Shown here: one piece after another, positions 1,805 through 31,859 of the stretch
How the letters are laid out: each line of letters starts with the position of its first letter
How positions within the stretch are numbered: the first letter of the stretch is position 1
NCBI GenBank assembly: GCA_021824125.1
Contig: JAKALO010000010.1
Span: forward strand, 1-38,446
Origin: Deltaproteobacteria bacterium
GTDB lineage: Bacteria > Desulfobacterota > Deferrimicrobia > Deferrimicrobiales > Deferrimicrobiaceae
Length of the DNA: 38,446 bases
Direction: 5' to 3'
Translations under genes and position numbers: made by a program
The notes under the pieces: model-generated
Told to the model about the DNA's origin: nothing
Seen by the model: the letters and a program-made list of their open reading frames with translations, nothing else
The model's database searches: none

Positions 1805-2395
1805 TCAGAATCTCATGTCAATTAAAGCCACTGCCCCGAAATCCGCACCGCTCCTATCGTCGCGCTTCCCATAACCGCGGACCTCGACGGTCACCGGCCC
1901 CACTCTCAAGGGTCGGGCATAGATCTCGCCGAGTACAAGCCCCACGGTCCCCATGCCCGCTCTGACGCCGAACTCCTTCTGGACGGCAAAGAATGGGGGC
2001 GTCGCTGGCCTGTACTCGATACTTCCTACCCCCACCCCGTCCGGCCCCGTGCGGAGGATGGCCGATGCGGTACCACCGGCCACGGAGGGAGGGATCGTAG
2101 CGGACGCGATGACATGGGCAGCGTTGTCCTGTATCGTGGACGGGGTGAGGACGTCAGGAATCTTCTCGATGTATTTTACTTTTTCGATGACCCGGATGCG
2201 CTCCGGACCGGGGATCAGGATCCGCTCCACCTTTGCCGCCGGGTCTTTCGGTTGGATGGCCGGCTGCGGCGTGTTCGTCCACGGCTTCATCGAGTCGGGT
2301 GCAAACTTCAGATAAACAAAGGCCGCAAGACCGATTACGACAATCATCGCCAAGTTGTTTGACATGGCAGATGATCCGATCTTTTTCCAATCCAC
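1805..2395 (-). CDS. Membrane-anchored hypothetical protein of the lysis region
   Basis: A 196-aa product starting at GTG with an AGGAGG site five bases upstream. There is one N-terminal span (about residues 13-30, NNLAMIVVIGLAAFVYL), then a proline-rich stretch, a charged segment (about 55-75), and a C-terminal region of alternating hydrophobic residues (about 100-196) that looks like beta strands. The topology, one inner-membrane anchor and a long external domain, is that of an inner-membrane spanin-like or anchored accessory protein. It lacks the long periplasmic coiled coil typical of Rz, so I leave the function open. Confidence 0.7.
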   Translation of the reverse strand: MDWKKIGSSAMSNNLAMIVVIGLAAFVYLKFAPDSMKPWTNTPQPAIQPKDPAAKVERILIPGPERIRVIEKVKYIEKIPDVLTPSTIQDNAAHVIASATIPPSVAGGTASAILRTGPDGVGVGSIEYRPATPPFFAVQKEFGVRAGMGTVGLVLGEIYARPLRVGPVTVEVRGYGKRDDRSGADFGAVALIDMRF

Positions 2396-2404
2396 GATCT
2401 CCTC

Positions 2405-2728
2405 CTACTCCTTCGGGGCCGCCGGATCGGAGACCTTCGGTGCCTCCCCGATCGGGCTGTTGTACTTACTGGAAATCGTGTACCCCCACGTATGCTTGAT
2501 GAGGATGGCCCCGACGATAAGGAACAGGACGCCGGTCGGTCCCCACCACCAGTCCGGGACGCGGAACCAGTCGAACGTCGCGTGAAGATACGCCATCACC
2601 ATCGTGTTGATGACGAGGAACGCGACAAGACAGAGTGGATTCACATCGAAGGCGTTGATGAAGTCTCGCAGTGCACGGCAGAGCGTTCCCCAAAAGTTGT
2701 CGGCGAACCCATTGGCGCGGTCGGCCAT
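2405..2728 (-). CDS. Putative holin, two transmembrane helices
   Basis: A 107-aa protein; ATG at 2728 chosen because it overlaps the stop of the preceding 44-aa gene (TGATG) and has AGGGAA upstream. An upstream in-frame ATG would run through that gene. Two hydrophobic spans, about residues 27-49 (NPLCLVAFLVINTMVMAYL) and 60-80 (GPTGVLFLIVGAILI), separated by an aromatic WWW segment, with a charged C-terminus. Size, two spans and placement a few genes after the endolysin suggest a class II-like holin that releases the lysozyme. Confidence 0.65.
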   Translation of the reverse strand: MADRANGFADNFWGTLCRALRDFINAFDVNPLCLVAFLVINTMVMAYLHATFDWFRVPDWWWGPTGVLFLIVGAILIKHTWGYTISSKYNSPIGEAPKVSDPAAPKE

Positions 2729-2862
2729 CACAGCTTCCCTGCTGTGTTCTTCAGGATGCGCATCGCTTTCATTGTCCGCTCCTTGTGCTTGCCGCCGACG
2801 AAGAACCCCGCGACGAATGCCCCTGCCACGAGCGACAACCATACGGCGGTTACGATGTCCAT
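2728..2862 (-). CDS. 44-aa single-span membrane protein of the lysis cassette
   Basis: A small gene starting ATG at 2862 behind a strong GGGAGGA site, with its stop overlapping the next ATG as TGATG. The peptide has an N-terminal span (about residues 4-24, VTAVWLSLVAGAFVAGFFVGG) followed by a strongly basic tail (KHKERTMKAMRILKN). The AGGAGG site and one-base coupling to the putative holin support a real gene. It may be a holin partner, antiholin or pinholin-type peptide; the sequence does not decide which. Confidence 0.65.
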   Translation of the reverse strand: MDIVTAVWLSLVAGAFVAGFFVGGKHKERTMKAMRILKNTAGKL

Positions 2863-2875
2863 AACATTCCTCCCT

Positions 2876-3265
2876 TTACGGCCTTGTAATGGTGATGCTG
2901 TGCGGCGTGGACGGCGCGAGGTAGGCTACCGTGTACGTGTAGTACGGCGCGTAGCCAGACTCGACATTCTCCGCCGGTATCGTGGCGGTAGCCGTCACGT
3001 AGATGGTCCCTCCCGGCGCGACGTTCAGGTTTCCGGACCACGATGTCGCGCCATTGAGCACGGTCGCAATCGCCGTTCCCCACGTGATGTGATCAAGGGA
3101 CTTGTAGAGCTTCGTCGTGATCGTCGCCCCCGCCCCAGAACTGATTGCGGACCCGTCCGTATAGGTGGTCGGCAGGGACCACGATATCGTTTCCGCCCGG
3201 GCGTGCCGGGTGAGGATCATGACGGCGAGGATGCACAGCGCGAAGATGAAGATGCGGCGTTTCAT
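2876..3265 (-). CDS. Exported Fn3-like protein
   Basis: A 129-aa product from the ATG at 3265, which overlaps the stop of the preceding lipoprotein gene (ATGA). It has a clear Sec signal peptide (MKRR, hydrophobic core to about residue 19, ARA cleavage before ETISW). The mature part is about 105 residues of alternating strands with the spacing of a fibronectin type III-like domain (W-x-L-P near the start, G-x-x-Y-x-V near the middle). It resembles its upstream neighbour in plan, so the two may be an old duplication. Its role in the periplasm or cell surface is unknown. Confidence 0.7.
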   Translation of the reverse strand: MKRRIFIFALCILAVMILTRHARAETISWSLPTTYTDGSAISSGAGATITTKLYKSLDHITWGTAIATVLNGATSWSGNLNVAPGGTIYVTATATIPAENVESGYAPYYTYTVAYLAPSTPHSITITRP

Positions 3266-3639
3266 GGGGCCTCCCACCAGCACGGCGTCCCGTAATCGGA
3301 CGCCGCGTTGTCGATTGATATGGACCGCACGGTGACGTAGCAATTCGGCCGGATGCCGTAGGCCGCGAGTAACGAAAGGTCGAACGTGCTGACCGGTACT
3401 CCCACGTTATCCACTCCCGCGAGGGCCGCCCGGAGCGTGTTGTCGTTCCATGCCGCGTTATCGGACACGTGGACCTCGTACCAACTGATCAACCGGAGAT
3501 CCATCGGGGAATTGTCGTTCCACTTCGCATCCTGTATCCACGTGAGCATCGTCTTCTCGACGGGGGCGGGAGGTCCCGAGGACGACCCGCACGACATCGC
3601 GAGGAGGCAAAGAAGGGGGATCCACCATTTCCTCATCAT
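3262..3639 (-). CDS. Putative lipoprotein with Fn3-like domain
   Basis: A 125-aa protein beginning MMRKWWIPLLCLLAMSC. The hydrophobic core ends in AMSC followed by GSSSG, a usable lipobox with Cys17 as the lipidation site, although Met at -2 is not the commonest residue. After a short linker comes one Fn3-like beta domain. Overlaps both neighbours by ATGA. A small outer-membrane lipoprotein beside the endolysin recalls outer-membrane spanins, but those are usually shorter and proline-rich; a surface or superinfection role is equally possible. Confidence 0.65.
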   Translation of the reverse strand: MMRKWWIPLLCLLAMSCGSSSGPPAPVEKTMLTWIQDAKWNDNSPMDLRLISWYEVHVSDNAAWNDNTLRAALAGVDNVGVPVSTFDLSLLAAYGIRPNCYVTVRSISIDNAASDYGTPCWWEAP

Positions 3640-24023: not shown

Positions 24024-25907
24024 CTACCTCCCTACCCCGCGGCTTAATACCCTGCGGCCGCGGCCTTGGGGCTTCAGGTCCTCGGGCGTTCTGATTTTTT
24101 CTTTCATCTCCCGCGACTGGGCCTGGATCATCGCGGCATACCGTTCCAGGTCGGGGTTGAGGGCGATCAGCGCCGCGTAGCCATAAACCCTGGAATCCAG
24201 TCCCTCGTTTCTCTCCCGGTTCTTCTTCCAGATGAACTTGACTTCGCCCTTCTCGCGGATCTTGATGAGCGACTCGGCCGTGAGCTGCTTAAAATACTCC
24301 TCGTCCGCCGCCATCGGAAAATGCATGTACCCGGGGCCCGGGCCCTCAAGCTTGAGCCGCGACAGAATCGTGCGCTTAAGAGCGTCCGTCCCGATGATAC
24401 GCAGGGGGACGTTGCCTGCGTTGTTACGGTTCGGCCGGCCGACCGCCGGCAGTGCCGGCTTGCTTCCCCCCTTGACCGCCCATATTCGCCGGTCCTCTCT
24501 GGGCTTGCAGAACTCGTAGACCTTCGTCGTCGCGTGGCCGCCGGAGTCGATCGCAGCCGCCATGACGACGAGGGTTACCCCGAGCTCGTGCTGGTACCGC
24601 TTCGACAGGAGGATGTCCAGATCCTGCCAGGGGCGAAGGTCGGTTTCCGTGCGCCCAGGGATGACCGCGTATTCGATCTGCCACGACTCCTCGCCGGGGG
24701 CCCACCCGATCACCTCGGCCTCGATCCGGTCGTCTTGGACGTCCACTCCCACCGTGATCGCGCAGACCCGGGCGGGGACGAGCGGGCCGTATTCCTCGCG
24801 GCGGGCAAGAAGGCCGCTCTCGTCCACCGTGGTGGTGTCCTCCTTCCACGTCTCCCCCAGGGCGGCGTTTATGAACACCCGGAGTTGCTCGGGGCTCTTG
24901 GACCGGACGGCCTTGACGAACCGGATCGCGAGTTTGTGCAGCGTCGTCCAAGGGGAATAGAGTGCCGATATATGAAATCCCGCGATCCCCTTGACCCATG
25001 GCCGCGTAATCTCCCACCGGCCCTTCCGGACCATCCGGTAACGCTCGTGCTCCTCGATGCGGCCGCGGCAGTACGCGCATTCGTAACGGACGTCTACGGG
25101 GTTGCCCCGCTCGTCCTTGCTCCATTTGACCTGCGGCCATATCAGGCGCTGGTGCTTCCTACACCCCTTGCGGGGGCAGGGGACCATGAAGTACCGCTGG
25201 TCCGAGCCGTCCCATTCCGCCTCGATCCGCGAGATCTCGTGAACCGTCGGGGTGGAACCCTTGTACGTCTTGGAGTTCCAGAACGTCTCGGTACGGACGG
25301 TGCCGAGCTCGATCGCGTCCCCCTCCTCCTTCACGGAGGGAGGGTACTTGTCCACCTCGTCGAACAGCACGATCCGGATCGGACGGGAGGCGAGGTCCGC
25401 CGGGGATCCCGCCGTGGCCACGGCGAGCATCCCGCCCTCGAAAACCTTCTCCTGGATCGTATTCGATGAATTCTTCGTCCGCGGCTCGGCGATCACCCCA
25501 CGGAGCGCCGGCGTGTCCCGAAGCATCGGCGAAAGCCTGGTCTTGCTCCAGGAGTTCGCCATCTTGATGTTGGGCTGCACCACCAAAATGGAAGCCGGGT
25601 CCTGGTGGACGTGAAACCCGATGATGTTGTTGATGACCTCGGTGGAGCCGACCTGCGCCGCCTTCATCAGGACCACGGTCGAGACGTCCGGATCCGAGAA
25701 GGCATCCATGACGCCGCGCAGATATTCAGCCCGCGCGGTGCTCCACTTGCCCGGCTCGGCGCTTGCCTCTGCGGACAGGACGCGGTGCAGGTCCGCCCAC
25801 TGACTCACCATCAACTGCGGAGGCGCCTTCACTATCGCCGTTGCCCGGTGCAATGTCTTCGACAGCCCGGCCAAGGATTCCGGAGTAATCAGCGCCGGCA
25901 AGCTCAT
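24024..25907 (-). CDS. Terminase large subunit, GpA family
   Basis: 627 aa. ATPase motor: Walker A region MKAAQVGSTE at about 81-90, Walker B IRIVLFDEVDKY at about 177-188. A zinc-like pair follows (CPRKGC, then CAYC), as in lambda gpA relatives. The nuclease domain begins near VGVDVQDDRIEAEVIGW, with a conserved Asp, and continues through AIDSGGHATTKVYEFC. Packages DNA and cuts at cos. The start at 25907 (GAGG upstream) puts the first 61 codons inside the terminase small subunit gene; a later Met at residue 33 is an alternative. Confidence 0.95.
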   Translation of the reverse strand: MSLPALITPESLAGLSKTLHRATAIVKAPPQLMVSQWADLHRVLSAEASAEPGKWSTARAEYLRGVMDAFSDPDVSTVVLMKAAQVGSTEVINNIIGFHVHQDPASILVVQPNIKMANSWSKTRLSPMLRDTPALRGVIAEPRTKNSSNTIQEKVFEGGMLAVATAGSPADLASRPIRIVLFDEVDKYPPSVKEEGDAIELGTVRTETFWNSKTYKGSTPTVHEISRIEAEWDGSDQRYFMVPCPRKGCRKHQRLIWPQVKWSKDERGNPVDVRYECAYCRGRIEEHERYRMVRKGRWEITRPWVKGIAGFHISALYSPWTTLHKLAIRFVKAVRSKSPEQLRVFINAALGETWKEDTTTVDESGLLARREEYGPLVPARVCAITVGVDVQDDRIEAEVIGWAPGEESWQIEYAVIPGRTETDLRPWQDLDILLSKRYQHELGVTLVVMAAAIDSGGHATTKVYEFCKPREDRRIWAVKGGSKPALPAVGRPNRNNAGNVPLRIIGTDALKRTILSRLKLEGPGPGYMHFPMAADEEYFKQLTAESLIKIREKGEVKFIWKKNRERNEGLDSRVYGYAALIALNPDLERYAAMIQAQSREMKEKIRTPEDLKPQGRGRRVLSRGVGR

Positions 25908-26447: not shown

Positions 26448-27089
26448 TCAAAAACCCTGCTCCGCAATGGCTGCCGCGATCGCCTGGCTGATCGATTTCT
26501 CTGCGTGTTCGTTCGCCACGCGCTGCGCAACGTCGAGGACATGCACGCGCTTGGGGATCCTGACGGTTTTCTCAAGTGCCCACATCGGGACGAGCATCGA
26601 TATCGTCTTGCGGGCCTTGCCTCTGCCGGCCGCGCCCTTCACTCGCTGGAACAGCACCGGTCCCTTCTTCGTCCGGATGCGCACGAGTTTGTCGCCCATG
26701 CGAGCCGGAGTCAGCCTGCGCGGGATAGGCGCAGTCTCAGTCCGGGAACTACGCACCTGCGGGAATGGAACGATAAGGAATTCGGATTCGCGTGGCTTGT
26801 GAATCACATCTGACTCCTGCTCGACGAGCCACGGTGCCTTTGTGGAGATAGTGGCCTCCAGGTTGTTTTTCGTCGCCGCCTTGCGGTTGATGCCGTACTT
26901 CGTCCCCGGCCTGATCCAGTGGCCGCGGACGGTGAGGTTCTGCATCGCCTCTTCGATCATCGCAGTCTGCACCTTGTCCGCAACCCCGGTGATTGCCCGG
27001 GCAACGTAGTTCGGAATACGCTGCGAGCCCAGCGCATGAAGATCCCGAACCATCTTGTCGATTCCCTGGATCTCGATCTTCAGTTCCAT
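26448..27089 (-). CDS. Putative minor tail / morphogenesis protein (GpZ-like)
   Basis: 213 aa, ATG behind AAGGACGGC. Begins MELKIEIQGIDKMVRDLHALG, followed by helices (IPNYVARAITGVADKVQTAMIEEAM) and a basic strand-rich middle (RIRTKKGPVLFQRVKG), ending in a long helix (VANEHAEKSISQAIAAAIAEQGF). This pattern matches the lambda gpZ/HK97 gp10 group of tail completion proteins. The position is odd: it is upstream of the terminase genes, away from the head-tail joining block. Confidence 0.65.
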   Translation of the reverse strand: MELKIEIQGIDKMVRDLHALGSQRIPNYVARAITGVADKVQTAMIEEAMQNLTVRGHWIRPGTKYGINRKAATKNNLEATISTKAPWLVEQESDVIHKPRESEFLIVPFPQVRSSRTETAPIPRRLTPARMGDKLVRIRTKKGPVLFQRVKGAAGRGKARKTISMLVPMWALEKTVRIPKRVHVLDVAQRVANEHAEKSISQAIAAAIAEQGF

Positions 27090-27099
27090 GCCGTCCTTC

Positions 27100-27306
27100 T
27101 CACGCCGCGAACGGCGCCGCGTTCTGCCGCCTGCTGTGCGCCGCCAGTTGCCGCGCCCTCTTCGTCCCTACGACGCAACAATCGCAGGCCCGGATCGTCA
27201 ACTCCTTGCCGCCCGCGGGGAAGATGCGGCGCTTGATGCACGCCTGTTCCCGGTCCCGCAACCTGCACTTCCTCGCCGCGTGACCCGGGGGTAGGCGCTG
27301 CGCCAT
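27100..27306 (-). CDS. Small Cys-rich basic protein
   Basis: 68 aa from the ATG at 27306, which has AAGGAG five bases upstream. Highly basic, with Cys at about residues 14 and 22 and an ACDCC cluster at about 42-46; a small zinc-binding unit is possible. No family recognised. It sits between the structured non-coding stretch and the GpZ-like gene. Confidence 0.6.
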   Translation of the reverse strand: MAQRLPPGHAARKCRLRDREQACIKRRIFPAGGKELTIRACDCCVVGTKRARQLAAHSRRQNAAPFAA

Positions 27307-27511
27307 CTCGGCTCCTTGTGCCGGTAAAGGGGCGCGGCCCCGTCTGAGGGGGCCGCGGGAAAGGAGAAGCACGCCACCTTCTTGGCGGAGTGGCTGGAAT
27401 GACGGAGGGCCCGGAGGGAGTCTCCGAGCCCTTCACTGCCGGGGCCTTGACCGGGTTTCCCCGGGCATCTCCGCCCCACCGTTGCGCTGGTCGCGCGTGG
27501 TATTCCGACGA
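27307..27511. other. Structured non-coding stretch with three GC-rich hairpins; cos candidate
   Basis: No convincing gene. A 9-bp perfect stem CGCGGCCCC/GGGGCCGCG (27333-27341 with 27349-27357, 7-nt loop), a stem GGGC-c-CGGAG/CTCCG-a-GCCC with one mismatch (27407-27431), and CCGGGG/CCCCGG around a 14-nt loop (about 27439-27464). It follows an HNH gene of the type placed beside cos in HK97-like phages and precedes the packaging genes. Confidence 0.4.
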
Positions 27512-27847
27512 TTATGCGGCTTTCCCTGATCTTTTCATGGCATGCCACTTCCCGTGACAGGAAGCGCAAAGAGTGACGCCATTGTCGACTGAGTGCCGAA
27601 GTTGCGGGAACTTCCTGCGCGAAAATATGTGATGAGCGTGTAGATTTTCAAGAGAGCCGCACACCTGACAGGTCATGGCGTCTCGCGCCATCACTCCCTT
27701 TGACCATCTTTCGGTGTGTTTCGCCGTTGCTTTTCGTTCCGCCGAATCTCTTACTCTTCCGGCGTGGACGCGATTCTCGAACTCGCTTTGGGACGTGGCA
27801 ACGATGGTGCCGATATTTCTCTTTTGCAACCTCTTGGATATCCTCAA
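27512..27847 (-). CDS. HNH nuclease, probably packaging-associated
   Basis: 111 aa, TTG start at 27847 overlapping the previous stop (TTGA), with GGGAG upstream. Compact HNH motif: CQVCGS, then LHAHHIFSRRKFPQLRHSVDNGVTLCASCHGKWH. Two CxxC pairs bind zinc, and the HH and final CHGKWH give the catalytic beta-beta-alpha-metal unit. The N-terminal 50 residues are basic. Its location near the terminase genes resembles HK97 gp74, which helps cos cleavage, so this one is more likely a packaging component than a homing nuclease. Confidence 0.85.
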   Translation of the reverse strand: MRISKRLQKRNIGTIVATSQSEFENRVHAGRVRDSAERKATAKHTERWSKGVMARDAMTCQVCGSLENLHAHHIFSRRKFPQLRHSVDNGVTLCASCHGKWHAMKRSGKAA

Positions 27848-28080
27848 GGCTGGTTCTCCCTTATGGTCCCCATTGTGTGGATATTCGCCACCATGTCAAT
27901 ATCGGAATCTTTCAATTCTTTCACGCGACGGTTCCCGTGCCTGAAAAGATGCTTCAACCCGTTCACCTTCACGAAGCGATACGCCGTCGAATAGCTGACA
28001 TCGAACTCCTCCGCTACTTCGGGGATGGTCCACCCGCTGGCCGCGCAATCCATGACGGCCTCGCGGGTCATCTCACCCAA
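27844..28080 (-). CDS. Small helix-turn-helix DNA-binding protein
   Basis: 78 aa, TTG start with GGGAGGG upstream, overlapping the previous stop. Contains one HTH: AVMDCAASGWTIPEVAEEFDVSYSTAYRFVKVNGLKHLFR (about residues 8-47), similar to homeodomain-like HTHs of transposases and late regulators. It lies just before the packaging and structural genes, so a late transcription regulator is a reasonable guess. Confidence 0.75.
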   Translation of the reverse strand: MGEMTREAVMDCAASGWTIPEVAEEFDVSYSTAYRFVKVNGLKHLFRHGNRRVKELKDSDIDMVANIHTMGTIRENQP

Positions 28081-28492
28081 CGCTGATCCCTCCCTTGCGG
28101 AGAGCTTGCGCCATCCGTCGGATATCCCAGGACACCAGCCCCCGCAGCCGCCGCGGTTTCACGAACGCCCCACATGCGACGCAGTACACCCGCCCCTTGC
28201 CACGATCCTCCGGGGCCCGCCCCATACAGAGGGGGCAGACGCTCCACGCCGGGATCGACTGCCAGAACGTGCCGGCCACGTCGTCCGATACCTTGAGCCA
28301 CGCCTGCGCGTACCCCGTGCGGTCGTACTTCTCGACCACCACGCGGACGGAGACGGCGTATTCAAGCTGCCGGTTCCCGGCGTCGACCCGGATCGGAGCA
28401 GGAATCCCCCTCTGCGGGATCAGCGTCTTCACCCCGCCGATCGACATGATCCGCTCGGCCTCCTCGACGTGCTGGCGGAGAGTGCGGGGCAT
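28073..28492 (-). CDS. Zinc-ribbon protein of the replication/late boundary
   Basis: 139 aa from the ATG at 28492, chosen because it overlaps the stop of the short upstream remnant as TGATG. A helical N-terminus (MPRTLRQHVEEAERIMSIGG) precedes a strand region (RQLEYAVSVRVVVEKYD) and a zinc ribbon: CPLC and YCVAC at about residues 86-89 and 105-109. A basic helix follows (KPRRLRGLVSWDIRRMAQALRK). Probably binds DNA; family not recognised. Confidence 0.75.
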   Translation of the reverse strand: MPRTLRQHVEEAERIMSIGGVKTLIPQRGIPAPIRVDAGNRQLEYAVSVRVVVEKYDRTGYAQAWLKVSDDVAGTFWQSIPAWSVCPLCMGRAPEDRGKGRVYCVACGAFVKPRRLRGLVSWDIRRMAQALRKGGISVG

Positions 28493-28587
28493 CAGCCCTG
28501 CGCCCTCATGCACGTCCGTTCATGGAGCCTCCTCGCCCTGATCTCGTTCAGCTCGTTCAGGAACTGCTGCACGCTCGTGGCCACGAT
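28492..28587 (-). pseudogene. Displaced original 3' end of the VRR-NUC gene
   Basis: A remnant directly after the HNH stop encodes IVATSVQQFLNELNEIR, then ARRLHERTCMRAQG. It matches the C-terminus of the VRR-NUC protein (IVATSVDQFLRELDVIR, then NRRTRERQ) at 17 of 24 positions. Its stop overlaps the next ATG as TGATG, the coupling expected of the uninterrupted gene. A GTG at 28584 could start a 30-aa peptide, but no ribosome site supports it well. Homology begins at the ATC codon sharing its A with the HNH stop. See findings. Confidence 0.85.
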
Positions 28588-29072
28588 CAAAGTAAAAACC
28601 CCTGCTCTTGCATAAACCGGATCGGGTCTTTCCCGCCTTTCTTGGTGTTGCATTTGGGGCAGGTTAACTGGATATTCTTGTCTTCGTTCTTCCCACCGCG
28701 AATAAGGGGCACGATGTGGTCAAGATGAAATCCAGTTTTCTTTAAGCTCTTTTTACAGACAGAACACTTGCCCTTTTGAATCGCGAACAGCCTTGAAGCT
28801 ATATCCGGGGATAATTTCCCTCCGCTGCCTTTCTTCCGTGCATGGCGGTTTTTATTGTTGATCTTCACCTTTTCGCTATTTTCTTTCCGATATCCGGAGC
28901 TGTAATCCCTCCCTCTCGTCGGGTTCTTTTCACGCCACTTGTCCAGATATCCCTTCACCTTTTCCGGATTCCTCGCACGCCATGCGGCAATACTTTTTTT
29001 CACCCGCTCTTTGTTCTCGGCGTAATACGCAGCCCGATAAGCCCTCGCTTTTTCTTTTGACGCAAAGGACAT
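28587..29072 (-). CDS. HNH endonuclease inserted in the VRR-NUC gene (homing-type)
   Basis: 161 aa, ATG overlapping the VRR-NUC stop (TAATG). The N-terminal 80 residues are basic and repetitive (KARAYRAAYYAENKERVKK, AAWRARNPEKVKGYLDKWREKNP), a form common in free-standing HNH endonucleases. The HNH motif is CSVCKKS, then HLDHIVPLIRGGKNEDKNIQLTCPKCNTKKG (about residues 103-146). The gene is clearly less GC-rich than its neighbours, with A-ending and T-ending codons, indicating a foreign origin. It is flanked by two versions of the VRR-NUC 3' end, one on each side. Confidence 0.9.
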   Translation of the reverse strand: MSFASKEKARAYRAAYYAENKERVKKSIAAWRARNPEKVKGYLDKWREKNPTRGRDYSSGYRKENSEKVKINNKNRHARKKGSGGKLSPDIASRLFAIQKGKCSVCKKSLKKTGFHLDHIVPLIRGGKNEDKNIQLTCPKCNTKKGGKDPIRFMQEQGFLL

Positions 29073-29479
29073 TACTGCCTCTCTCTGGTTCTTCGATTAC
29101 GAATCACGTCAAGCTCTCGAAGAAACTGGTCAACGCTTGTCGCTACAATTCGTTCAAGCCCACATCTTCGGTAAATTTCTCCCCATTCAGCCTGCTCAGG
29201 TTCAAGGTCATTCCCCGCGAGTTTACATTCCACCATCACCACGCAGTTGGCGTCCGGCACGTAGACCGTCAGGTCCCACGTCCCCGCGGTGTGCAGGCGC
29301 ATCACACCCGCGTTCTTGAGCCCCCGGGCCAGCCCCGTGTTATTGCGCTCGCAGCGAAGGTGGAGCCGCCGGCAAGCATCCCTGATTGGTTCTTGAACTT
29401 CACTCGTTTCCCAGTTCTTCTGGGCGCCGGATCCATGCCGAACCTGCCGCGCCCAGGGGAGCTGCGTGAAGCGGGTCAC
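29072..29479 (-). CDS. VRR-NUC domain nuclease with replaced C-terminus
   Basis: 135 aa, GTG start overlapping the previous stop (GTGA). The nuclease core reads LKNAGVMRLHTAGTWDLTVYVPDANCVVMVECKLAGNDLEPEQAEWGEIY: Asp in TWDL, the E-x-K pair in VECKL, and Gln in EQAEW give the PD-(D/E)XK site (about residues 64-105). Such phage enzymes act as structure-specific nucleases in recombination or replication. Base composition switches near position 29235: upstream codons are GC-rich, while the last ~50 codons resemble the following HNH gene. The C-terminus therefore seems to have come with the HNH insertion. Confidence 0.88.
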   Translation of the reverse strand: MTRFTQLPWARQVRHGSGAQKNWETSEVQEPIRDACRRLHLRCERNNTGLARGLKNAGVMRLHTAGTWDLTVYVPDANCVVMVECKLAGNDLEPEQAEWGEIYRRCGLERIVATSVDQFLRELDVIRNRRTRERQ

Positions 29480-30111
29480 TTTGCCGAGGCCTCCGCTGGT
29501 GAATCCCCCGCGGCTTCCGCTGCCGGCGCCTTGGGCTCCAACCCAAGCACCTCCCGATATTTCACGGCGTACTCTCCGAACTCCGCCGCCTCGAGGACCT
29601 CAAGGATCCGCAGGAACGCGGCTCCATGCCTCTCCGCGATCGCACCCCAACAGTGGCGGTGCACGGCGATCTGGCCGATCATCGCCCACTCCGCCTCGGT
29701 GAACGTCTTGATCGGCTGCTTGTAGATCAGTGCAAGGAAGAAGTCGTGATTGTCGACGTAGTTTTTGGCGCCCCTCAGGTACGCGCCGCTCAGGTACGCG
29801 CCCCTCAGGTACGCGCCGCCGAGGTCCGCGCCCCTCAGGTACGCGCCCCTCAGGTCCGCGCCCCTCAGGTACGCGCCCCTCAGGTACGCGCCCGTCAGGT
29901 ACGCGCCCCTCAGGTCCGCGCCGCCGAGGTCCGCGCCCGTCAGGTCCGCGCCCCTCAGGTACGCGCCGCCGAGGTACGCGCCCGTCAGGTACGCGCCCCT
30001 CAGGTCCGCGCCGCTTTTCACGGCGGCCTCGAGGGTGAGCTTCAGGCTCTCCGTCTCCAGGCTGAACAGGATGTTCCCGCTGAAGCGGTGCTTGATCTCG
30101 AAGAGTTTCAC
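29476..30111 (-). CDS. Pentapeptide-repeat protein
   Basis: 211 aa, GTG start overlapping the previous stop. N-terminal 34 residues are ordinary. Residues 35-114 are 16 uninterrupted A-(D/Y)-L-(R/T/G/S)-G pentapeptides, about four turns of a right-handed quadrilateral beta helix. A C-terminal helical domain of about 75 residues (KTFTEAEWAMIGQIAVHRHCW...) and an Ala/Glu/Pro tail follow. Related helices mimic DNA and can protect or inhibit gyrase, but many have no known role. The absence of bulky residues in the i position and the Tyr/Asp alternation are unusual. It lies between nuclease and replication genes. Confidence 0.85.
   Translation of the reverse strand: MKLFEIKHRFSGNILFSLETESLKLTLEAAVKSGADLRGAYLTGAYLGGAYLRGADLTGADLGGADLRGAYLTGAYLRGAYLRGADLRGAYLRGADLGGAYLRGAYLSGAYLRGAKNYVDNHDFFLALIYKQPIKTFTEAEWAMIGQIAVHRHCWGAIAERHGAAFLRILEVLEAAEFGEYAVKYREVLGLEPKAPAAEAAGDSPAEASAK
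29770..30009. repeat. 16 tandem 15-bp units coding pentapeptides
   Basis: Near-identical 15-bp units (plus strand: GCGCCCCTCAGGTAC and close variants) fill 240 bp without interruption. Differences are mainly TAC/TCC (Tyr/Asp) and CCT/CCG/CGT (Arg/Gly/Thr) at two positions. Such uniformity at DNA level implies recent expansion or gene conversion and predicts copy-number variation. Confidence 0.95.
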
Positions 30112-30362
30112 CGCGCGCCTCCCGCTCTCCTCACCGGCGGCGCGTTCCCTGCCTCCACGCCCAGCGGCAGCGACGGCTGCTCAACCTCGATGTTCGCGAT
30201 GAAGGCGCCCTTCTGCCCGTCGGTGAGCTCGTCGACGGCGGCCTTCGTGGCGGTCCCGTCGATCTCGATGTGGAACTCTCCCCGCGCGTACTGCGTGGGG
30301 CCGTCCTTGGTCTGCCGGAGCCTGTAGGACACGTTGCGGATGAACATCTTCACGTTCGCCAT
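30108..30362 (-). CDS. Hypothetical protein, 84 aa
   Basis: ATG at 30362 has AAGGAGG seven bases upstream; longer frames lack a site. Begins MANVKMFIRNVSYRLRQTKDGPTQYARGEFHIEIDG, a beta-hairpin-rich pattern, then a helix (KAAVDELTDGQKGAFIANIEV). Ends in a flexible Pro/Gly tail. It is the first gene after the repeat field that follows the RepA-like helicase. No family recognised. Confidence 0.7.
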   Translation of the reverse strand: MANVKMFIRNVSYRLRQTKDGPTQYARGEFHIEIDGTATKAAVDELTDGQKGAFIANIEVEQPSLPLGVEAGNAPPVRRAGGAR

Positions 30363-30452
30363 CTGAAGCCTCCTTTTCGTCTGGGGGTGGGGTGCCTTTT
30401 TACTGCCGTCCACTTCGTCCGTCTGGTGATCAAAAAACGCTCCTCTGGCGAA

Positions 30453-30718
30453 TACCCCTCACGGGGTTACCCCTCACAACGAGGGAGGGGGAACCCCCCC
30501 CCGTAGGGGGGGGGTTGTGGTGAGGGGTAATCGAAGTAAGTGAAATGAAAGGGAAATATTTCCCCTCACAGGTGTTTTTTGAGGGGTAATCGTGAGGGGA
30601 AATCAATGTTGTTGATTTTATTGAGGATTTAATACCCCTCACCGAATACCCCTCAAACGTGAGGGGTATTGAGGGGTAATCGAAATGAGGGGTATTTTCC
30701 GCGTGGAAATGAGGGGTC
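30453..30718. repeat. Iteron-like field, 12 copies of TGAGGGGTA in both orientations; candidate replication origin
   Basis: Core TGAGGGGTA or its complement starts at 30453, 30468, 30521, 30560, 30580, 30593, 30633, 30647, 30660, 30670, 30686 and 30710. Nine copies are exact, two read TGAGGGGAA and one TGAGGGGTC. Five copies read as TACCCCTCA (or TTCCCCTCA) on the plus strand. An AT-rich patch with an inverted repeat AATCAA/TTGATT (about 30601-30632) lies inside. The field begins in the stop codon of the RepA-like helicase gene. Repeats next to a helicase gene suggest the phage origin. No gene is credible in these 354 bp. Confidence 0.75.
30492..30516. other. Hairpin of nine C and nine G
   Basis: AA plus nine C, loop GTA, nine G plus TT: an 11-bp perfect stem with a three-base loop inside the repeat field. 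The G-run could alternatively form a quadruplex. No T-tract follows, so a terminator is less likely than an origin or pausing structure. Confidence 0.8.
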
Positions 30719-31859
30719 ATTCAGCACCTCCAGAGGTGTCTTCCACCAGGGAGAAAATCCGGCCGTTGCCGCGACCGATGACGGGCCTCGATGTGACCAT
30801 GTTGACGAGGGGGGAAGAGGCGAACGCGACGGCGCGCTCGGCGGTCGCCTGGGAGACGTTCTTCAGCTCCTTGATCTGGGAATAGAGCTGCTTCCCCATC
30901 ATCTCGCCGCCGAAAGATTCGATGATCCTGGCGATCTCCACCGGGGGGATGTTCGACCGCAGCAGCTTGGGGGCTTTCGTCCCAGGGACGAGAACAACGC
31001 CCTCCCGGGTGAGCTCCATAGGGGCCGGGTCCTCGAAGTTCCGGAGGGTGAAGTCGAGATGGAATTTCTCGTCGGAGTCCTCTTTCGTGCGGGAGAGCAT
31101 CATGGCGCCGTCGACAAACCCGTCCAGTCCCGCGCCGCGCAGCTCGGAGATCCCCGAGTTGACACCGATCGACTTGCGCACGTGGTGAACCAGGAGGACG
31201 CACTTCCCTGCTTCCTTCACACGGTCGAGGACGTCCTGGACCCGCCGGGCATCGGCGTGGGAGTTCTCGTCACCCTCGGCGATGAACCGGTAGATGGGGT
31301 CAAGGATCACAACCTCGAAGGGATCGACCAAGCGCATGAGGGTGCGCTCGCCGGCGTCGGTGTCGATCTTGAGCTTTCCGTTGGTGGAGAGGTATTCCAT
31401 GCGCTGGAGGCCGTCTTCTTCGACTTCCGTGAAGGCGATCAGCTTCTGGAATCGCTCCCGGAGGCGCACCTCGCGGCCTTCCGCGGAGAGTAGCAGGACC
31501 TTGAAGGACCGGGTGGCGTTGAAGCCGAGCCAGGGCCCACCGGCGGCCGCGCACAGGCCCATCGACTTGATCGTCCAGCTCTTCATCGCCTTCGGTGGTC
31601 CGCCCAGAACGGTGACCTCCCCCATGGCCAAGAGGCCCTCGAAGACTTCTTCCGGAGATGTGAGGGTCTCGTCCTGTAGGAGATCCAGGACGGGCCGTGG
31701 GCGCATATTCTCGAGGACGACGAGCCTTGCCGCCTCCGCTGGCGTAAGTTGAGGGGCGCTCCAGCGGGTTTTACCTTTTTCGATCCGGGGGCCCGGCATC
31801 CGGCGGCCGACGTCCTCGACCACAGACCCAAGATCATCGTCGTCGGGTGTGTGCGGCAT
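30717..31859 (-). CDS. RepA-like replicative helicase / AAA_25 ATPase
   Basis: 380 aa from the ATG at 31859, which overlaps the previous stop (TAATG); a GTG three codons earlier is possible. RecA-like core: Walker A GGPPKAMKSW at 86-95, Walker B FEVVILDPIY near 165, sensor-like LLVHHVRKS near 205, and an Arg-rich end of the core. The C-terminal 90 residues form a winged-helix-like region (KQLYSQIKELKNVSQATAERAVAFA). This is the RSF1010 RepA/AAA_25 type of hexameric helicase often encoded by phages. Its substrate origin is probably the repeat field beginning at its stop codon. Confidence 0.85.
   Translation of the reverse strand: MPHTPDDDDLGSVVEDVGRRMPGPRIEKGKTRWSAPQLTPAEAARLVVLENMRPRPVLDLLQDETLTSPEEVFEGLLAMGEVTVLGGPPKAMKSWTIKSMGLCAAAGGPWLGFNATRSFKVLLLSAEGREVRLRERFQKLIAFTEVEEDGLQRMEYLSTNGKLKIDTDAGERTLMRLVDPFEVVILDPIYRFIAEGDENSHADARRVQDVLDRVKEAGKCVLLVHHVRKSIGVNSGISELRGAGLDGFVDGAMMLSRTKEDSDEKFHLDFTLRNFEDPAPMELTREGVVLVPGTKAPKLLRSNIPPVEIARIIESFGGEMMGKQLYSQIKELKNVSQATAERAVAFASSPLVNMVTSRPVIGRGNGRIFSLVEDTSGGAE

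Follow-up and report, generated by a model that had tools for sequence, protein, structure and literature searches.

HNH endonuclease gene lodged between a foreign live end and the displaced native end of a phage VRR-NUC-type gene, a layout recurring at five further loci

The window analyzed here, a stretch of 38,446 nucleotides, is the whole of one contig (C32) of a draft bacterial genome with 246 contigs, and includes phage genes such as that of the terminase large subunit (24024–25907). On the minus strand, a VRR-NUC-type nuclease gene encoding 135 amino acids (29479–29072; phrog_93 endonuclease, 8e-10) is followed by an HNH endonuclease gene encoding 161 amino acids (29072–28587; Pfam HNH_5, 3e-13; HNH, 1.5e-12), a remnant of a VRR-NUC 3′ end (28587–28492), and a zinc-ribbon-like gene (28492–28073). 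The VRR-NUC reading frame terminates in IVATSVDQFLRELDVIRNRRTRERQ, and its stop overlaps the HNH ATG as TAATG. The remnant, translated as IVATSVQQFLNELNEIRARRLHERTCMRAQG up to its own stop, takes the final base of the HNH stop as its first (28587; TGATC), and its TGA (28494–28492) shares the sequence TGATG with the ATG of the next gene. These overlaps, the identity of live end and remnant at 17 of 24 residues, and AGC as the sole codon shared among the first six had all been described in the original prediction and were borne out, save that we counted 31 codons plus stop in the remnant instead of 30. Of the 17 identical residues, 14 are encoded by synonymous codons and three by the same codon; in a comparison of tails against downstream sequences at 131 HNH loci, the live tail matched the remnant with E = 2.6e-7. 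Two further features lie nearby: a second, unrelated HNH gene between the zinc-ribbon and terminase genes (27512–27847, minus strand; PF01844, 5e-9), and dense short inverted and direct repeats at 30430–30600 (CCCCTCAC...GTGAGGGG and CCCCCCCCC/GGGGGGGGG), which lie upstream of both the pentapeptide gene and the VRR-NUC gene.

The window VRR-NUC protein had no Pfam match, and its homolog from locus L018 scored 19.2 bits against Pfam VRR_NUC, below the cut-off of 23.8. The best PDB fold match of the predicted model (mean pLDDT 66, locally 87–90) was the VRR_NUC structure 4qbn, a weak one (E 0.0095, probability 1.00). In this model, the last core strand comprises residues 109–113 and the final helix residues 116–134. 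The first codon of the remnant corresponds to codon 111 of the live gene and hence lies within this last strand, so the gene end needs restoring: as modeled, VRR-NUC would lose part of its core if an insertion at this point brought no new end with it.

To which lineage each of the two ends belongs can be read from relatives that lack the HNH gene. Single-sequence searches retrieved no VRR-NUC relatives from phage records or bacterial genomes, and those used here came from an alignment search of viral contigs (L002, L018, L019, and L020; later L237), all with an uninterrupted gene and no HNH gene at the site. L002 and L018 harbor the remnant-type end (QQF..ELNEI+ARR.HERTC) within their uninterrupted VRR-NUC gene. 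Across the 24 codons in common, nucleotide identity of the remnant is 89% to L002 and 88% to L018, and 18 of 20 and 17 of 22 shared residues, respectively, have the same codon (by blastn, 28511–28589 is 90% identical to L002 3329–3407), as compared with 57% nucleotide identity and three of 17 same codons between live tail and remnant. Conversely, live codons 85–110 are 85% identical to L019 in amino acid sequence and 62% identical to L002 and L018; the live tail is AT-richer than L019's own sequence. Since the remnant matches L002 and L018, and the live tail the L019 type, we infer that the remnant is the recipient's own gene end and that the live end stems from a diverged allele. The original prediction of a recoded, cut-resistant tail thus held insofar as the tail is foreign and differently spelled, yet with its L019-like amino acids it resembles a natural diverged allele and not a designed copy. 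Likewise, uninterrupted relatives with a remnant-type end were found as anticipated, but neither L002 nor L018 showed the expected overlap with the zinc-ribbon gene: in both, other genes lie downstream of VRR-NUC. A gene similar to the window's zinc-ribbon gene comes downstream in L019 (2127–2702). Both gene ends together in one HNH-free relative—an arrangement at odds with the predicted insertion—were found in none of the relatives examined.

An HNH gene flanked by two copies of one gene end might also be explained by partial duplication of that end in place, with one copy diverging afterwards. However, it is the untranslated copy that is conserved and native (88–89% nucleotide identity), whereas both composition and lineage mark the live copy as foreign, and the same polarity is found at three of the loci described below (L177, L046, and L011), which makes this route extremely improbable. 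Wider genome searches uncovered one further partial VRR-NUC copy only, L005 (genome G013, contig C297). Its contig ends at 3706, exactly inside IVATSV, the putative insertion point, possibly reflecting a mixture of strains with and without an insertion; no HNH gene joined to this VRR-NUC end was found in G013.

Third-position GC content delimits the foreign tract. Likelihood segmentation placed the main break at codon 83/84 (~29230), close to the left boundary previously estimated near 29235. GC3 is about 0.9 in the remaining gene and in the relatives and about 0.38 (20/51) past the break, in line with the AT-leaning style noted earlier for the last ~50 codons. The foreign 3′ end (codons ~84–135 plus stop; 29230–29072) begins 27 codons upstream of the remnant-start equivalent. 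A four-segment model added an AT-lean patch absent from the original prediction, at codons 24–35 (29410–29375), with a GC3 of 0.25 between flanks of 0.87–0.94 (p = 0.0016 in a shuffle test over codons 1–84 with an 18-codon window); codons 20–37 have a GC3 of 0.89–0.94 in all relatives. The gene is native at codons 1–19 and 38–84, with 88% and 84% nucleotide identity to L002, and the patch probably belongs, as a separate piece, to the same conversion as the 3′ end. Since a break repaired from a diverged template leaves such a pattern, this patchwork suggests patchy gene conversion. At the right border, native sequence (TGATCGTGG) resumes within the HNH stop. TGATC is common to native relatives and the ends of the family HNH genes at L049 and L177, so up to five bases of microhomology may have been available at this junction.

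Frames are open and stop/start overlaps intact at every border of the locus. That the contig derives from a 246-contig draft assembly raises the question of a chimera of two strains, but such an artefact should hardly have left all frames and overlaps whole, and the layout recurs in other contigs as well as in the complete records of Synechococcus phages Ssp-JY40 and Yong-M3-232; we regard a chimera as scarcely credible.

In alignments of the HNH family, the conserved cysteines and HNH residues are intact in the window's protein. Its nearest relative (L021) is only about 50% identical, so no recent transfer can be traced, and a donor phage with the same live tail plus HNH gene was not found. 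Searches of 27087–30979 gave no Rfam match indicative of an intron around the HNH gene, and the VRR-NUC stop precedes the HNH start; we therefore rejected an intron- or intein-encoded enzyme, in agreement with the original view that neither is needed.

To assess whether the layout recurs, we compared the upstream and downstream flanks of 131 distinct HNH-gene relatives drawn from collections of viral, phage, and bacterial sequences. Six loci including the window showed one gene end in duplicate at the borders of the HNH gene (E < 1e-3); the five additional ones are of the kind that the original prediction proposed to search for. Among 655 shuffled pairs, values below 1e-3 arose in only three alignments, all from a single pair of homologous phages (L026/L079). 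In all five other loci the HNH gene sits exactly between both gene-end copies, and in every case the foreign tract runs from the junction into the live gene, with the native end beyond the HNH gene. In the four 3′ cases, native sequence restarts 0–7 bases from the HNH stop. Several further candidates were rejected: L031 proved to be a tandem duplication of the HNH gene with a zinc-finger leader (2279–3500; HNH gene plus small zinc-ribbon ORF, copies about 62–67% identical at the protein level), L099 a terminator-like repeat, and L172 and L187 chance matches to DUF669.

An empty site resolves the insertion at the 3′ end of a NinG gene (L177) to the base. The HNH-free phage CBW1004C-Prop1 (MZ188970.1) is 93% identical to L177 in nucleotides upstream of the insert and 86% downstream, and the comparison shows the native sequence split as ...CTGGAAGG|CCCACACG... 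(also written ...CTGGAAGG|CCCACACGACC...), with foreign tail and HNH gene in between and zero native bases lost. A few extra differences occur in the last ~20 bases ahead of the junction. In two further loci (L049 and L147), the 3′ end of the same small gene adjoining the terminase gene is affected. The two genes are 50% and their HNH proteins 44% identical in amino acids, and native sequence resumes at the identical place, CGTGCGTTG. That diverged genes and diverged HNH enzymes share one insertion point speaks for site-specific entry; no HNH-free relatives were found for either locus.

Recombinational mosaicism is common among phages, and the HNH gene could simply have hitch-hiked when homologous recombination with a diverged phage was completed by an illegitimate join on the far side, the nuclease playing no causal part. 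Such an accident does not readily account for five other HNH loci with the same layout and the HNH gene exactly between the copies, nor for insertion at the same site in two diverged phages (L049 and L147), and we consider it very unlikely.

The two remaining loci are mirror images, with insertions at 5′ ends. At L046, the displaced start of a portal gene (MARRPKQSETDSEIVREAQER) lies ahead of the HNH gene, with a foreign start behind it. This foreign tract extends to about codon 88, with ~47–81% nucleotide but up to 100% amino acid identity; past codon 88, DNA identity climbs to mostly 81–92% and the gene is native. HNH-free relatives have the displaced-type portal start. At L011, represented by the complete records of Ssp-JY40 and Yong-M3-232, the displaced start of a helicase gene is fused in frame with the HNH reading frame, such that the first 23 residues of the annotated Ssp-JY40 HNH protein are old helicase. 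The HNH-free L103 matches the displaced start of L011 at 58 of 63 nucleotides and the live start at 36 of 63; the boundary of the helicase tract is placed by GC3 only. In a Rhizobium phage (L012), an HNH gene directly precedes the same helicase, but there is no remnant and we did not count it as a case. The helicase start is overlapped by an HNH gene in three phages (L101 1915–2511, L012 2557–3390, and L011 2596–3414), of which L101 is Roseobacter phage CRP-901, whose HNH looks like a different type. This gene start looks like a hot spot for nuclease genes.

Ahead of many of the family's HNH genes sit an extended –10 promoter and a two-tier hairpin leader, which shows covariation and ends at the ATG (L046 2188–2266, L076 2204–2281, L156 2228–2302, L190 2093–2173, L205 2096–2176, L011 2690–2769, and others). 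Nine of its 12 pairs show compensatory changes. Three leaders matched the Rfam family symR on the opposite strand with 48.2, 32.6, and 28.6 bits, below the 61-bit threshold. The hairpin leader is present in both 5′-end insertions and apparently not in the 3′-end ones. Two more structured-looking leader types, TCAGGACAGGGC...TGACACCA and AGGACGGCCATCCCGAAAA, precede other HNH genes (L026 2207, L028 2330, L079 1983, L149 2267, and L178 1148; L045, L162, and L070), and one L070 stretch matched the int-alpA RNA below threshold.

Taken together, the locus comprises a hybrid VRR-NUC gene with a foreign live end and a native remnant, has HNH-free relatives, and belongs to a layout that recurs at both gene ends. 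The sequence comparisons support the original reading of an HNH unit inserted near the 3′ end with the host protein restored, and we consider it probable that a free-standing, homing-type HNH gene invaded the VRR-NUC 3′ end by way of cleavage. The HNH enzyme would cut the native, uninterrupted gene at or beside the IVATSV codons of the last core strand, where the remnant begins; in a VRR-NUC end of the L002/L018 type, this cut would fall near ATCGTGGCCACGAGC. The upstream side of the break would then pair with a diverged VRR-NUC allele carrying an HNH gene directly behind its stop, repair synthesis would copy the donor's gene end together with the HNH gene, and the copy would be joined to the other side of the break, leaving the native 3′ end untranslated behind the HNH stop. 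The expected outcome is a VRR-NUC protein that is hybrid yet full-length, while the native target is split and diverged on one side. Because of this split and replacement, the occupied allele should be immune to recutting, and because the two gene ends are too different in DNA sequence, the HNH gene should be hard to delete by recombination. The remnant, in turn, could act as right-hand homology arm in later homing. The 5′ cases would obey the same rule, with strand invasion from the gene side and joining on the far side of the HNH gene.

The right borders of the four 3′ cases are neater than random end joining would give. So sharp a border at the HNH stop points to a defined unit or else to later two-sided homing via the remnant. 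A fixed mobile cassette of recoded end plus HNH gene, its tail selected to restore the protein and resist cutting (the simplest reading in the original prediction), would fit these borders, as it would the L177 unit, which looks as if placed between two native bases without loss. Yet the foreign tract extends past the remnant start by differing lengths (about 27 codons in the window versus about 67 in L046), is broken into patches in the window, and carries the amino acids of a natural, L019-type lineage, and L177 has extra differences right before its junction; such a cassette is hence unlikely, and cut-induced, one-sided repair from a diverged allele remains our preferred explanation.

The 3′ layout has a precedent, contrary to the impression in the original prediction that it was not a described class. 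In fungal mitochondrial gene hybrids (Allomyces macrogynus atp6; Glomus sp. atp6, atp9, cox2, and nad3), the native end is about 91–98% identical to relatives and the foreign end 64–81% (PMC3630166). As in the window, an endonuclease gene lies near the 3′ end, with a foreign in-frame end upstream and a native end downstream, and the window's native copy likewise matches insertion-free relatives (88–89% of nucleotides, L002/L018). Unlike these mitochondrial and mostly LAGLIDADG-type insertions, the window has an HNH gene among phage genes, and the phage cases include a one-nucleotide stop/start overlap (in the window) as well as mirrored insertions at 5′ ends. Intronless homing by T4 Seg and Mob enzymes and F-CphI, with its co-conversion of flanks (PMC2988022), resembles our loci in that a free-standing phage nuclease gene lies beside a diverged allele of a neighboring gene. 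However, the cleavage sites of those enzymes are hundreds to thousands of bases from the nuclease gene (PMC2988022), whereas here the putative cut coincides with the insertion point and a displaced gene end remains. One-sided illegitimate break repair has been described in phage T4 intron homing (Parker et al. 1999, as summarized in PMC2988022), and its combination of homology on one side of the break with end joining on the other is the route proposed here; that example concerns a group I intron in the laboratory, as opposed to the natural, intron-less HNH insertions for which we suggest it. We found no phage example and no 5′ version of the layout in a literature search that covered subscription papers thinly and is not proof of novelty; the phage occurrence, the HNH enzyme, and the mirror-image 5′ form look new.

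It is conceivable, and we propose it tentatively, that these loci represent a class of self-mending phage homing elements, in which an HNH gene travels with a diverged 3′ or 5′ end of its host gene and the displaced end serves as second arm. If so, the diverged end would at once keep the protein whole, hide the target, and prevent recombinational deletion, and each remnant start would mark the cleavage site of its enzyme, providing predicted sites for six uncharacterized HNH enzymes. For annotation, the Ssp-JY40 HNH protein illustrates a consequence, since it carries old helicase residues. How nuclease genes without intron or intein enter essential genes without killing their host is a standing question. 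The phage loci offer snapshots of this process that preserve both the native and the replaced gene end and, for L177, include the empty site at base resolution. They carry a layout known from fungal mitochondria over to phages and also to the starts of genes, and point to a route by which nuclease genes give rise to hybrid host proteins and transfer gene ends from one phage to another.
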